Below are positions 3,992-18,001 of a stretch of DNA of 35,616 bases, piece by piece. The notes beneath the pieces are model-generated. The model made no database searches. It was not told where the DNA came from and saw only the letters and a program-made list of their open reading frames with translations. The DNA is from Minisyncoccota bacterium (GTDB lineage: Bacteria; Patescibacteriota; Minisyncoccia; Minisyncoccales; Minisyncoccaceae). Numbering within the stretch: position 1 is the first letter of the stretch; every line of letters starts with the position of its first letter. The stretch spans positions 1 through 35,616 of the forward strand of contig JAQUWR010000004.1 of NCBI GenBank assembly GCA_028692745.1, given 5' to 3'. Made by a program: the position numbers and the translations under genes.

Positions 3992-4367
3992 ATTTCTTTT
4001 TCATCTTTATCAAAACATCCTTTAAAGAAGCTTTGATAAAGATGTCTTTTGTTTTTAAACGGAAACCCGCCAAAAGACTCTCATCTAAAGAATAATTAAT
4101 TTCTTTTTTTTCTTTAAGAATATCTTGAATCTTTATTTCTAATTCTTCTTTTAACTCTTTGTCAAAATCTAAAGCCGATACTAATTCTGCAATCTCTTCT
4201 TTCTTATAAATATTTTCTGCTTTTTTCAAAATAGGAAAAAGAAGTTCTTTCTTTTTTTCTAAAATTTTTAAAAGATTAGAAAAAATCTCTTGCTTTTTTT
4301 CTGGATTCTCTTTAAGAGACAAGTATAAACTTCTAGCTAGAATTGTTACTTCTTTTTCTTTCTTCAT
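3969..4367 (-). CDS. atpH: F1Fo ATP synthase delta subunit
   Basis: Position between b and alpha; size and helical composition plus C-terminal DESLLAGFRLKTKDIFIKASLKDVLIKMKK. Confidence 0.85.
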   Translation of the reverse strand: MKKEKEVTILARSLYLSLKENPEKKQEIFSNLLKILEKKKELLFPILKKAENIYKKEEIAELVSALDFDKELKEELEIKIQDILKEKKEINYSLDESLLAGFRLKTKDIFIKASLKDVLIKMKKKYGLNRTV

Positions 4368-4846
4368 ATACTCTTTAAAAATTCTTCTGTCACTTTCTTA
4401 TTCTTTTCTTGGTCAATGTTTTCTTTCAAAATCTTCTCAGCTAAAACAAAAGAACTATCAATAACAATTTTTTCCATTTTTTCTTTTTCTTTTTCTTTTA
4501 TTTCTTCTGCTTCTTTTTGAGCTTTTAACAAAAGACTTTCTCTTTCTTTTTCAGCTAAAAGAATTGCCTCACTAATCTTTTCTTTTCCTTGCCTTTCAGC
4601 GTCAAGAATTATTTTTTTCTTTTTTTCTTCATTTTCCTTATCAGCTTTTTCTTTAACTTCTCTTATTTTATTAAGATTTTCTTCTGCTTCTTTAGATTTA
4701 TTAATACCATCCTCTATTTGATCTCTTCTTTTTTTCATTAAACCCAAAAATGGAGCATAAACAAAACTCTTTAATACAAAGAAAAGAATAGCAAAGTTAA
4801 TTAATTGTCCTATTAAAATTTTCCAATCTATATTTAAGCCTTCCAT
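4364..4846 (-). CDS. atpF: F1Fo ATP synthase b subunit
   Basis: N-terminal TM segment followed by a long charged coiled coil; position between c and delta. Confidence 0.92.
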   Translation of the reverse strand: MEGLNIDWKILIGQLINFAILFFVLKSFVYAPFLGLMKKRRDQIEDGINKSKEAEENLNKIREVKEKADKENEEKKKKIILDAERQGKEKISEAILLAEKERESLLLKAQKEAEEIKEKEKEKMEKIVIDSSFVLAEKILKENIDQEKNKKVTEEFLKSI

Positions 4847-13186: not shown

Positions 13187-14281
13187 ATGGATTATTTTGA
13201 AAGAATAAAAAATAGCATAGAAAATGCTAAAAATATAGTAATTGTGGCAAACAATAACGCTGACAAAGACATTATGGCAGCTACTTTAGCCATGTTTTTT
13301 GCTTTAAAAAATAAATATAATGTTTTTCTTCCCGAAGAAAAAAATCCTGAAAAACTAATTGAATTTTTAAATGAAGACGTGGGAAAGAAAAAAATAGTAA
13401 TTTCTTTAAAAAATGATATCTCTGAAATTTCTTACCAAAAAAGCGATAACGGTATAGATCTTCATTTGATTCCTAAAAACATTGAAGATCTTAGTCCTGA
13501 AAATTTTTCTTGTAAATTAATATCTGAAGAAAAACCAGAGTCTTTTTCTTCTTTGCCTATTTTTGATTTAATAATTGCTTTTAACATTAAATCATTTAAT
13601 GAGCTCGAAAATTATTTTCAAGAAAACACTGATTCAGTTTATAATTGTACTGTTATGAATATTGATAACAATGATCAAAATGAAAATTATGGAGAAATAA
13701 ATATTATTGAAAAAGATTCTTCTGTCTCAGAACAAATAGCAATATTAATTAAAAATATTTATGGAAAAATTAATGATAAAGCTGCTGGCTTTTTGTTGTG
13801 GGGCATAATATCAAACCTTAACAATAAAAAAACTTTTCAAACATTAAAAATAATAAAATGGTTAATTGGGCAAGGCGGAAACTTATATTTTAATCATACA
13901 AAACCAGAAACAAAAAGAAAACTTTCTCTTTTGGGAAAAACTATTGAAAATCTTAAATTTATAGAAACTGACAATTTTTATCTCTCTTCTTTATCTGAAA
14001 AAGATTTAAAAACTAATGATAGCACTTCTGCTGACATATCTTTTGTAATAGAAAAAATAAAAAACTATTTCTCTATTCCTTCTTTCATGCTATTATGGGA
14101 AGGGAGATCTTCTCCTGTATCAATCAAAGGAGTCTTCTATTCTAAAAAAGAAGACCTGATTAATAAAATTAAAAATACTTATAGTGGATCATATAAAGGA
14201 GAAGGGGGGATTTTTTTAACTAAAAATCAAGACCTTTTTTCAGCAGAAAAAGAAATAACTTCATTATTATGGAAAAAATAA
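13187..14281 (+). CDS. DHH-superfamily-like protein with degenerate catalytic motifs
   Basis: ENAKNIVIVANNNADKDIMAATLAM fits motif I; NIDNNDQNENYGEINIIEKDSSVSEQIAILI fits the DHH motif region with HH replaced; ATG start 13187 preferred over TTG 13148. Confidence 0.65.
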   Translation: MDYFERIKNSIENAKNIVIVANNNADKDIMAATLAMFFALKNKYNVFLPEEKNPEKLIEFLNEDVGKKKIVISLKNDISEISYQKSDNGIDLHLIPKNIEDLSPENFSCKLISEEKPESFSSLPIFDLIIAFNIKSFNELENYFQENTDSVYNCTVMNIDNNDQNENYGEINIIEKDSSVSEQIAILIKNIYGKINDKAAGFLLWGIISNLNNKKTFQTLKIIKWLIGQGGNLYFNHTKPETKRKLSLLGKTIENLKFIETDNFYLSSLSEKDLKTNDSTSADISFVIEKIKNYFSIPSFMLLWEGRSSPVSIKGVFYSKKEDLINKIKNTYSGSYKGEGGIFLTKNQDLFSAEKEITSLLWKK

Positions 14282-15570
14282 CTGGTGAAATAAATATTGA
14301 TAATGATTTTTTAACTAAAAACCAAGAAAAACTTCAAAACGTTTCTTCTCTTTCTCAATTTATAGAATCTTCTTTGTCTGAAGATACAAGTATTGTTTTA
14401 AAAACAATTATGGCTGGAGCCATTGAAATCAATGCTTCTGATTTACATTTCGAAGCCGAAGAAAACGGAAGCGAACTAAGAATGAGAATAGATGGCGTTC
14501 TTCAAAAAGTCTGTTCTTTCAATTCTTTTCAATATAAATCAATTGTTTCGAGAATAAAACTTTTATCAAAGATGAAACTAAATGTAGAAAAAAAACCACA
14601 AGATGGTAGATTTACTATTCTACTAGAAAAAGAAATAACTGAACAAATAGAAATTAGAGTTTCTACTCTTCCCTCAGAATACGGAGAAACAATTGTAATA
14701 AGGGTTTTAAATCCTAAAAGCTTAATAAGCCTGGAAGACCTTGGCTTAAGAAAAGACTTATATAAAATTTTCACTGATCAATCAGAAAAACCCAATGGTA
14801 TGATTGTTGTTACTGGTCCAACTGGTTCTGGTAAAACAACAACTCTTTATGCTTTTTTAAAAAAAATAAAAAGCTCTGAAATTAAAATTGTAACCATCGA
14901 AGATCCTATAGAATATCATTTGTCTGGAATTTCTCAAACACAAGTTGATCCTAAAAAAGGATATGATTTTGCTTCAGGATTAAGATCAATAGTAAGACAA
15001 GATCCTGATGTAATTTTAGTTGGAGAAATTAGAGATCTTGAAACAGCAAGCATTGCTTTACAGGCCGCATTAACAGGACACCTTGTTTTAAGTACCCTTC
15101 ACACCAATGATGCTGCTGGTACAATTGCTAGGCTTAATGCTTTAGGAGAAAAACCAGTAAATATTGCTCCTGCTATTAATATGGTTGTTGCTCAAAGATT
15201 AATAAGAAAATTATGCCCTAAATGCGCTGAAGAAAAAATAATATCTAAAGAATTACACGAAGAATTAAAAGAAACATTAAAAAACATTCCTTCTTCAATA
15301 GAAATTCCAGAATTCAATGAAAAAACAAAAATTCTTTTTCCAAAAGGATGTGCTTATTGCAACAATACTGGATACAAAGGAAGAATTGGTTTATTTGAAA
15401 CATTAATCGTTGATTCTGAAATGGAAGATTTTATTCTTACTTCTCCATCTTCTTCTGCGCTAGAAAAATTTGCAATTCAAAAAGGAATGATCACAATGAA
15501 ACAAGATGGATACATTAAAATATTAAATAATATTACCAGTTTTGAAGAAGTTAAAAAAGTTGTGGGATAA
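14269..15570 (+). CDS. Type II/IV pilus assembly ATPase (PilB/GspE family)
   Basis: VTGPTGSGKTTTLYAFL, GEIRDLETASIALQAALTGHLVLSTLHTNDA, tetracysteine CPKC...CAYCNNTGYKGR. Confidence 0.97.
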   Translation: MEKITGEINIDNDFLTKNQEKLQNVSSLSQFIESSLSEDTSIVLKTIMAGAIEINASDLHFEAEENGSELRMRIDGVLQKVCSFNSFQYKSIVSRIKLLSKMKLNVEKKPQDGRFTILLEKEITEQIEIRVSTLPSEYGETIVIRVLNPKSLISLEDLGLRKDLYKIFTDQSEKPNGMIVVTGPTGSGKTTTLYAFLKKIKSSEIKIVTIEDPIEYHLSGISQTQVDPKKGYDFASGLRSIVRQDPDVILVGEIRDLETASIALQAALTGHLVLSTLHTNDAAGTIARLNALGEKPVNIAPAINMVVAQRLIRKLCPKCAEEKIISKELHEELKETLKNIPSSIEIPEFNEKTKILFPKGCAYCNNTGYKGRIGLFETLIVDSEMEDFILTSPSSSALEKFAIQKGMITMKQDGYIKILNNITSFEEVKKVVG

Positions 15571-15597
15571 AAAAACTGCATTAATAAATTAATGCAG
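15569..15597 (-). terminator. Rho-independent terminator of the minus-strand structured RNA
   Basis: Minus strand CTGCATTAA TTTA TTAATGCAG TTTTTTT: 9-bp perfect stem and seven Ts; overlaps the pilB stop codon. Confidence 0.88.
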
Positions 15598-15735
15598 GAA
15601 ATAATTCCTGAACTGGGGGCTAACTTTAGCATTCGGGCTGAAAGTCAAGAATTTTCCTGAGGAATAGCCCAGCGCAAACCAAACAATCCATTAACTACAG
15701 AAAATCCCTACCCCCAGTTCAAGAATCATTTTGTA
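15569..15735 (-). ncRNA. Structured small RNA, about 165 nt, 6S RNA-like architecture
   Basis: Promoter at 15769-15741 and terminator at 15597-15569 on the same strand; closing helix 15610-15619 with 15711-15720 (GAACTGGGGG/CCCCCAGTTC) extendable outward with few mismatches; inner GGGCT/AGCCC arm; small GCTAAAGTTAGC hairpin next to the closing helix; no ORF. Confidence 0.7.
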
Positions 15736-15740
15736 CTCTT

Positions 15741-15769
15741 AAGATAACACACTTATTAAAATTTGTCAA
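15741..15769 (-). promoter_or_regulatory. Strong sigma70-type promoter for the structured RNA
   Basis: Minus strand TTGACA (15769-15764), 17 bp, TATCTT (15746-15741). Confidence 0.8.
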
Positions 15770-15776
15770 GACCTAA

Positions 15777-16766
15777 ATGGACAATAACGAAGAACTAATT
15801 GAATCTACTTTAAGGCCTAAAAACTGGGATAATTACATAGGTCAAGAACGCATTAAAAAACACTTAAGAGTGATTATTGATGCTGCTAAAGAAAGAAATG
15901 AGGCTCCTGATCATGTTCTTCTTTATGGTCCTGCTGGATTAGGAAAAACCACCCTTGCCTATCTAATTGCTAAAGAAGCTGGGGCCAATATTCGAACAAC
16001 ATCAGGCCCAGTTATTGAAAAATCAGGAGATCTTGTTGCTATTTTAACAAACTTAAATGATGGTGATTTTTTATTCATTGATGAAATACATAGAATTAAT
16101 CGTTTTGTAGAAGAATATCTTTATTCTGCAATGGAAGAATTTAAACTTAATTTAATTCTAGGAAAAGGACCAATGGCAAAAACCATTGACATTGCTCTTC
16201 CCCAATTTACGCTTATCGGAGCAACAACAAGGGTAGATCTTTTATCAGCACCCCTAAGAAGTAGATTTGGGGCAGTATTACAATTAAATTTTTACAACCA
16301 AGAAGAGATTGAAAAAATAATAAAAAAGTCTGCAAAAATATTAAATGCAGAAATTGAAGAAAACGCAATTAAAGAAATTGCTAAAAGATCAAGGTTTACA
16401 CCTAGAACAGCTAATAAGCTCTTAAAAAGAGTCAGAGATTTTGCTCAGATAGAAAATAAAAACATTATTACCAAAGATTTAGCAGATAAGGCCTTAGACT
16501 TTTTGGAAGTGGATGAATTAGGATTAGAACCTTCTGATATAAAAATTCTCGAAACCATTATTAAAAAATTTAATGGTGGTCCTGCTGGATTACAAGCCTT
16601 ATCAGCTTCAACCTCAGAAGAAAAAAATGCGATACTAGAAATATATGAACCATATTTAATTCAATTAGGATTAATAAAAAGAACCTCTAAGGGACGTATT
16701 GCTACTGAATTAGCATACAAGCATTTAAAAATAAAATGCAAAAACGATCAACAAAACTTGCTTTAA
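15777..16766 (+). CDS. ruvB: Holliday junction helicase ATPase RuvB
   Basis: LRPKNWDNYIGQERIKKHL, LLYGPAGLGKTTLAYLIA, FIDEIHRINRFVEEYLY, GATTRVDLLSAPLRSRFG. Confidence 0.98.
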   Translation: MDNNEELIESTLRPKNWDNYIGQERIKKHLRVIIDAAKERNEAPDHVLLYGPAGLGKTTLAYLIAKEAGANIRTTSGPVIEKSGDLVAILTNLNDGDFLFIDEIHRINRFVEEYLYSAMEEFKLNLILGKGPMAKTIDIALPQFTLIGATTRVDLLSAPLRSRFGAVLQLNFYNQEEIEKIIKKSAKILNAEIEENAIKEIAKRSRFTPRTANKLLKRVRDFAQIENKNIITKDLADKALDFLEVDELGLEPSDIKILETIIKKFNGGPAGLQALSASTSEEKNAILEIYEPYLIQLGLIKRTSKGRIATELAYKHLKIKCKNDQQNLL

Positions 16767-17338
16767 TTCTTTTGTTTATTTTTCAAATAGCAAAAGCTGA
16801 TATTCTTATCAATGAGATATGTTGGATGGGAGACGATATTTCTAGTTCTAATGAATGGATAGAATTATATAATAATTCAAGCGAAAATATTTCTCTTAAC
16901 AATTGGCAAATTATAATTTCTGATAAAAAAATAATTAATCTTGAGGGGATGATTCCTTCTCAAGGTTTTTACCTTTTGTCTAGAAATAAAAATCAAAAAG
17001 AAGCTAACTTGTTTTATAGTAAAGCCCTAAACAATAAAGGAGAAAAAATAGAATTAATTGATGAAAAAAACAACTTAATTGATTTAGCAGAATTCTCTAA
17101 TGGATGGCCTTATGGAAACAATGAAACCAAGCAAACAATGGAAAAAAATTCAGAAGCATGGCAAACAAGCATAAATTCAAAAGGAACCCCAAAACAACCT
17201 AATAGTTTAATTGAGAAAGAAGAAACAAAAACCATTAACCATGATAAAGAAAAAACCAATAACAACACTATTATTTTCTCTTTATTTCTTTCCTTTTTTT
17301 CCGGAGGAATCGTTGTTTTTATTAAAAGATTAATCTAA
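16736..17338 (+). CDS. Secreted/anchored lamin-tail-domain (LTD) protein
   Basis: Signal peptide LALILLFIFQIAKA, then DILINEICWMG...NEWIELYNNSSENISLNNWQI; C-terminal TM helix IIFSLFLSFFSGGIVVFI. Confidence 0.82.
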   Translation: MQKRSTKLALILLFIFQIAKADILINEICWMGDDISSSNEWIELYNNSSENISLNNWQIIISDKKIINLEGMIPSQGFYLLSRNKNQKEANLFYSKALNNKGEKIELIDEKNNLIDLAEFSNGWPYGNNETKQTMEKNSEAWQTSINSKGTPKQPNSLIEKEETKTINHDKEKTNNNTIIFSLFLSFFSGGIVVFIKRLI

Positions 17339-18001
17339 TATTAATTTTTTAGAAATAAGAGTAATTTCTTCTTTAAAAAATTGCTTTATCTCTGCCCATG
17401 AAATATTAATACTTACTGATAACTCTGGATCATTTTCAGCATCCTCAAAATAAACTAAACTTTTTAAAATATGATTATAATTATGAGCGATTAAAGGATA
17501 CTGATCTGGTAACTTTTTAATAATTACTTCCAATGATTCTGTGTTTTTGATGCACCAATAAAGATCAAAAAAATCTCTTTTTTTACCACGTTGAGATATT
17601 GCTATTATTTTCATAACTGCAATATCCTCTAATTGAAGAATTTTAATTGTTCCATTTTTTATAAATTCCATTTTAGGTATAAAAAATGGATAAGATATAA
17701 AACTTATTTTCGCATCAAACATTCTAGCGTATAGTGTGCCTTCCTTATTAATATCTATTTTTAATTCTTTACACAAAGAGAGATTGTTTATCAATTCCGT
17801 ATTATCAAATTTATTATTTTTTGTAAAAAAATCTAAATCAATAGATTTACGATAACCTGCCTGTAAGGCTATAGCTGTACCACCAGCTAAATACCAGTCC
17901 GTCTTTTCAAGCCATTTTTGGTTGGCTAAAAAATCAAACGCTTTTTTTGTTTCTTGAGGCAAAAAATCAAAAACTATTTTTTTTCTAAAATTAAATTCCA
18001 T
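17330..18001 (-). CDS. AbiEii-type nucleotidyltransferase (toxin-like)
   Basis: WYLAGGTAIALQAGYRKSIDLDFFTKN nucleotidyltransferase motif and LEDIAVMKIIAISQRGKKRDFFDLYWCI. Confidence 0.88.
   Translation of the reverse strand: MEFNFRKKIVFDFLPQETKKAFDFLANQKWLEKTDWYLAGGTAIALQAGYRKSIDLDFFTKNNKFDNTELINNLSLCKELKIDINKEGTLYARMFDAKISFISYPFFIPKMEFIKNGTIKILQLEDIAVMKIIAISQRGKKRDFFDLYWCIKNTESLEVIIKKLPDQYPLIAHNYNHILKSLVYFEDAENDPELSVSINISWAEIKQFFKEEITLISKKLILD

Follow-up and report, generated by a model that had tools for sequence, protein, structure and literature searches.

The gap between pilB and ruvB in the stretch of Minisyncoccota DNA analysed here (35,616 nucleotides, hereafter the window) carries on its minus strand a non-coding gene of about 165 nt, at approximately 15734-15569, both strands having been read. 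Judged from sequence, the product of this gene is supported as a new RNA class absent from Rfam, because deep conservation and strong covariation are combined with the lack of any Rfam match. In particular, the gene shows the set of attributes by which a new family would be recognised, namely its own promoter, a terminator, a covarying fold, broad conservation and no coding potential. Searches with Rfam 15, at gathering as well as permissive thresholds, found no match to the RNA in the window, the order, the class or the loci of other classes, and no description of it was found in the literature, subscription papers and preprints aside. Two weak matches in the window region, snoZ39 on the plus strand (E 0.09) and manA-II (E 8.4), are at chance level and were discarded. 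The manA-II motif (RF04315) has a weak likeness of shape to the RNA (13.6 bits, E = 8.4), but its cut-off of 100 bits lies far above this score, it is a cis-regulatory motif and there is no convincing sequence agreement. An earlier note on this DNA had left the choice between a new RNA class and a divergent 6S RNA: the first is upheld and the second is not. The RNA is apparently new as an RNA family, and its mechanism could parallel a known one.

Gene boundaries and predicted fold

The gene lies between two genes of the opposite strand, namely its convergent neighbour pilB (14269..15570, plus strand), which encodes a type II/IV secretion ATPase (Pfam T2SSE, 1.1e-118), and its divergent neighbour ruvB (15777..16766, plus strand; Pfam RuvB_N, 7.8e-72). 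The putative promoter of the RNA consists of a -35 box TTGACA (15764..15769, minus strand) and a -10 box TATCTT (15741..15746, minus strand), the latter preceded by TG and separated from the former by a spacer of 17; transcription is expected to start at about 15734, the exact position being deduced. Consensus promoter sites of this kind are not rare within the window alone, and the promoter-like pair is conserved at related loci, where it is found no more than 90 nt upstream of the RNA in 93 of 105 cases, against 9.6 expected from mononucleotide shuffles. At the other end of the gene, an intrinsic terminator, CTGCATTAA-TTTA-TTAATGCAG followed by TTTTTTT (15569..15597, minus strand), abuts the pilB stop codon; its 9-bp stem spans 15597-15576 and is followed by the seven T. 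In distant relatives (L016-L019) the U-run comes directly after the closing helix P1, described below, and P1 itself is the terminator. The open reading frames that overlap the RNA region, the pilB stop aside, are all of 51 aa or less and arbitrary. These observations agree with the earlier note, which had described a gap devoid of ORFs, a TTGACA-17-TATCTT pair on the minus strand (here 15769-15741) and, after about 165 nt of RNA, a 9-bp stem with TTTTTTT (here 15597-15569).

The minus strand is predicted to fold with -65.4 kcal/mol, a value that no dinucleotide shuffle equals; the shuffles give -38.1 +/- 4.1, which corresponds to z = -6.7. A weaker fold is predicted for the plus strand (-48, z = -5.0). 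The overall architecture is a three-way junction, in which a 20-bp closing helix (P1) leads to a long arm (P2, divided into P2a and P2b) and to a small hairpin (P3). Covariation was measured in alignments of relatives. Specifically, in A3, for which 17 sequences were aligned with MAFFT without reference to structure, 93% of cells are paired and 26 of 50 pairs show double-sided changes, with a covariation of 0.376 compared with 0.206 in shuffles and at most 0.140 for slid partners. The larger A5 (60 members of the order) has 45 of 50 pairs covarying (0.607 vs 0.280), and A8 (56 members, some of them from outside the order and some from outside the class) has compensatory changes in 46 of 50 pairs (0.683 vs 0.240), values to be read knowing that A5, A6 and A8 were fitted to the covariance model, which favours it, and that A2, A3 and A9 alone are structure-free. 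Covariation in relatives had been proposed in the earlier note as a check, and the helices do covary, from 26/50 pairs in A3 to 46/50 in A8.

All elements of the fold are given on the minus strand. P1 is formed by AATGATTCTTGAACTGGGGG (15711..15730) and CCCCCAGTTCAGGAATTATT (15600..15619), and all of its 20 pairs show compensatory changes in both A5 and A8; the suggestion that the closing helix could be extended outward holds true, as the helix GAACTGGGGG/CCCCCAGTTC continues to a length of 20 bp. The 11-bp helix P2a pairs GGGATTTTCTG (15698..15708) with AGGAAAATTCT (15648..15658), with 92-94% of cells paired and compensatory changes in 9/11 pairs in A5 and 10/11 in A8. The 5' stretch had been described as unpaired; actually GGGATTTTCT pairs with AGGAAAATTC and corresponds to this covarying helix. 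Above P2a an asymmetric internal loop opposes TAGTTAAT (15690..15697), whose AG is well conserved throughout the class by column conservation, to TC of a conserved CCUC (15659..15660; T in 52/56 and C in 54/56 members). The arm ends with the apical hairpin P2b, GGATTGTTTGGT-TTGC-GCTGGGCTATTCC (15661..15689), delineated by covariation in A5 and A8 together with column conservation, in which the basal GG/CC and a single G-C close to the loop do not vary among the 56 members. The invariant bases of the RNA in these 56 members cluster, in fact, in the P2 internal loop and the apical hairpin, and conserved bases that are unpaired occur in this internal loop and close to the apical loop. Finally, P3, ACTTTCAGC-CCGAAT-GCTAAAGT (15623..15645), lies on the 3' side of the junction, with about 82-85% of cells paired and compensatory changes in 8/8 pairs, and its length differs between families. 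Two helices of the original proposal are not supported: a GGGCT/AGCCC arm and a GCTAA/TTAGC hairpin covary no better than shuffles, of which 245/500 and 421/500, respectively, reach the observed score. Instead, AGCCC and GCTAAAGT belong to another hairpin, P3 (ACTTTC-AGC / GCT-AAAGT).

Distribution and the shorter form of other classes

A blastn search of 60 relatives detects the RNA in its own family and, more weakly, in further families of the order, with pilB adjacent in every case. Of 247 genomes of the order, 190 contain it according to covariance model R1, built from A3, and almost all of these have one match only; with model R2 the count for the class is 208/384. The remaining genomes, about 23% in the order and 46% in the class sample, gave no match and may either lack the RNA or carry a diverged one, given that the models came from near relatives, that the genome samples were drawn and not exhaustive and that strict filters drop weak matches. 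Pattern matches to the RNA come from Yanofskybacteria, Harrisonbacteria, Colwellbacteria, Paceibacterota and Parcubacteria, and the class carrying it is probably Paceibacteria. One genome (G030, L241) has two copies about 2.6 kb apart, one by pilB (1704-1835) and one by a 194-aa ORF (4309-4438), and another (G790) has two matches, one of which (L157) is without pilB nearby. The match in G296 (L119) is a bare hairpin and hence no member of the family. Phage records yielded no match to the RNA; one pattern match on a viral contig (L242), with no R3 match and no pilB or ruvB, was judged to be due to chance, and another pattern for the RNA had no match on viral contigs.

Model R3, run over 380 genomes of the phylum, gives 21 matches, of which those below 1e-5 outside the class are in G295, G354, G507, G871 and G932. 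Three of these five genomes, and the weak match G447, have in common the stretch CACGACAAG[C/T]A[T/C]GG. A motif search of 278 genomes gave 18 matches, of which 16 fit the RNA (L217 being partly masked) and two, L214 and L231, are exact-motif matches without a downstream partner and thus not RNAs. In 17 aligned sequences of this shorter form, CACGACAAG.A.GG and UUCUUG are invariant throughout, and double-sided changes occur in 24/34 predicted pairs. The shorter form is devoid of P3 and would fold as a rod, characterized by a nearly invariant 14-mer bulge, CACGACAAGCAUGG, opposite UUCUUG. As R3 detects the shorter form without having seen it, the sequences being absent from its training set, the two forms probably belong to one family; the CACGACAAGCAUGG bulge is absent in Paceibacteria, and therefore the link is probable and not proved.

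The genomic context of the shorter form is of a different kind. Ten proteins near nine loci were scanned, and eight of them, one per locus, have a VanW domain (L219, L221, L225, L226, L229, L230, L239 and L240), the orientation relative to the RNA being convergent in most cases; at the ninth locus the neighbour is a PG_binding_4 protein. No pilB or ruvB match occurs within about 1.5 kb of the vanW-side loci. In two loci (L221, L226) clpP is close to the shorter form. In G295, a genome of another class, the RNA adjoins a gene similar to release factors, of baeRF family 10 (L236:1690-2871), and ruvB lies on the opposite flank of the RNA at a distance of about 1 kb.

Candidate functions

With gene, strand, fold, conservation and synteny computed, we infer expression from the promoters and terminators, and in addition action in trans and the binding of a partner. 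The most plausible reading, held with a little more than even confidence, is that of a new-family, freestanding RNA, constitutively expressed and acting in trans, which would bind a protein through the P2 arm. Specifically, a freestanding single-copy gene with a sigma70-type promoter of its own would be transcribed in the direction of the pilB 3' end, and the intrinsic terminator would end a transcript of a predicted length of about 165 nt. This transcript would fold into the long P1, the P2a/P2b arm with its asymmetric internal loop and, in Paceibacteria, the small P3 on the 3' side. The RNA, presumably expressed constitutively, would act in trans and not in cis on pilB or ruvB, contacting a conserved protein or core machine via the P2 internal loop and the apical hairpin and, in the other classes, perhaps also via the invariant bulge. 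Several partners can be considered, one of them being RNA polymerase, to which 6S and Ms1 bind. Action in trans is favoured over action in cis because the gene is single copy, its promoter is constant, loop bases are conserved and the neighbours change between classes.

A broader formulation, for which the chances appear evenly balanced, is that of an ancient RNA of housekeeping type that occurs in several classes of Patescibacteria and has a function outside those of 6S, SRP, tmRNA and RNase P; its two architectures would be a three-way junction by pilB-ruvB in Paceibacteria and, in the other classes, a rod with the CACGACAAGCAUGG bulge, in most cases beside vanW. The Patescibacteria form a vast and for the most part uncultured group of bacteria with minimal genomes. 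The RNA is very probably important to the cell, as it is a single-copy gene in a fixed place, maintained by compensatory mutation throughout the class in genomes of 0.5-1 Mb that have shed most regulators. Its fixed neighbours make the RNA easy to find, delete and pull down, and the covariance analysis provides a concrete, testable structure. As for the familiar housekeeping RNAs, a tmRNA identity was rejected, given that the tmRNA of the genome sits elsewhere (C12:15924-16274), and the window was searched for tmRNA with none found; RNase P RNA is about 300 nt or more in length, which makes it an implausible identity.

It is rather unlikely that the RNA is a 6S-type regulator, that is, a divergent or analogous promoter mimic that would bind sigma-RNA polymerase (or the core enzyme, like Ms1), be released by product-RNA synthesis and have its AU-rich P2a melted by the polymerase. 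The points of resemblance to 6S/SsrS RNA (RF00013) are a freestanding gene with its own promoter, single copy and a size of 150-200 nt. In addition, the strong closing stem is followed by a 5' strand rich in AU, by an apical arm and by a small 3' hairpin, an order that is also that of 6S, in which the hairpin is known from some lineages. The long closing stem between the 5' and 3' ends, a feature of 6S, is found as the 20-bp P1 with every pair covarying, and in some 6S RNAs the 3' portion of the bubble does contain a hairpin (PMC8876501). Moreover, the class sample has no RF00013 match, and the class may therefore need another 6S. A hallmark of 6S, however, is a largely single-stranded central bubble between two helical arms (PMC8876501), and the open bubble is not found here: the corresponding region is P2a, 11 bp with compensatory changes in 9/11 to 10/11 pairs. 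As P2a covaries, in 10/11 pairs, the ground state would lack an open central bubble. In other words, a covarying helix replaces the bubble, and conservation sits in the apical hairpin and the internal loop.

Sequence models speak against 6S as well. RF00013, the model check that the earlier note had called for, has no match at E<=10 in the region or in the genome of origin, and none in ten relatives or in the class sample. Over 287 genomes of the phylum it gives 22 matches, 3 of them above the cut-off and none in the order or class of the window. Conversely, R3 applied to six 6S loci of other Patescibacteria stays at noise level in five; at the sixth (L106), R1-R3 reach 20 bits via the closing helix, the opposite strand giving 13 bits too, so that only this helix of Patescibacteria 6S is seen by R3. 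In addition, one genome (G516) carries the shorter form of the RNA together with a probable 6S, sub-threshold at 31.2 bits (cut-off 46.4), with a CACCCACCUGG element and a perfect GUGAUCCUG/CAGGAUCAC closing stem. An argument from mutual exclusion of 6S and this RNA was dropped as unsound, because few genomes of the phylum sample have either of them and G516 apparently has the two together. Identity as a divergent 6S is, on the whole, not supported. Patescibacteria of other classes do carry 6S (L103-L108, phylum sample), which is probably under-annotated in Patescibacteria, since 19/22 matches are below the Rfam cut-off. A related comparison is offered by Ms1 RNA of Actinobacteria, structurally likened to 6S, which is likewise lineage-wide and recognised largely by its fixed gene neighbours (PMC9130861); the RNA described here differs from Ms1 in its neighbours and in having no Rfam match, and for it RNA polymerase is a candidate partner.

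Improbable, too, is a regulatory sRNA that would act by base pairing, its invariant unpaired bases being complementary to a conserved target RNA. The 5' bulge CACGACAAGCAUGG of the other-class form is of the kind that a fixed target would preserve, but this stretch is absent in Paceibacteria, window included, where the conserved bases reside in the internal loop of P2 and in the apical hairpin.

A weaker rival, and quite an improbable one, is that the RNA is the lineage's missing SRP RNA, too divergent for Rfam. Neither RF00169 nor RF01854 has a match in the genome of origin and 19 relatives, strong RF00169 matches alone being listed, and tmRNA is found in 20/20 of the same genomes; moreover, the core SRP motif GGAANGNAGCAG is absent from the assembly, which is 90.7% complete. 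A single-copy, class-wide, rod-shaped RNA would fit the vacancy, bacterial SRP RNA being itself rod-shaped, single-copy and about 100-270 nt long. Against this, the SRP models have no match in the region (E<=10), ten relatives (E<=5) or twelve other-class loci (E<=2), and the Ffh-binding signature, a GGAA-type tetraloop with a CAGG/AGCAG internal loop, is absent from the RNA, whose apical hairpin is UUGGCUUCGGCUGG-like in the class with a UUCG-like apical loop. The SRP RNA of these 20 genomes is either very divergent or missed, and in the genome of origin it may simply have been missed because of the 90.7% completeness and of the restriction to strong RF00169 matches. With a 6S identity set aside and a recognisable SRP RNA apparently lacking in the order, the binding partner of the RNA becomes a direct question.

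Gene neighbourhood and regulation in cis

Of 105 loci examined, pilB was found at 103 and ruvB at 78, and without exception the RNA is oriented convergently to the former and divergently from the latter (103/103 and 78/78). This constancy would suit a cis element of pilB or ruvB, such as a convergent antisense RNA, a shared terminator or a riboswitch; such an element is nevertheless very improbable, given that the RNA strand is opposite to both genes and scores far higher (at L037, 124 bits vs 39 on the opposite strand), that the pilB coding region is not appreciably overlapped here and that the shorter form, a neighbour of vanW in most cases and without any pilB or ruvB match over the nearest 1.5 kb or so, speaks against regulation of pilB in cis. 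In particular, an RNA antisense to both neighbours cannot be the 5' leader of either, and a cis riboswitch or leader was rejected for all loci examined. The constant adjacency of pilB is instead read as inherited gene order, to which a functional link could be an alternative.

Beyond ruvB, the region 16736-18001 of the window encodes a lamin-tail-domain protein, which comes after ruvB, and, adjoining it, an AbiEii-type nucleotidyltransferase (17330-18001, minus strand). Genes with a lamin-tail domain adjoin the RNA or pilB in L065 and L078 too.
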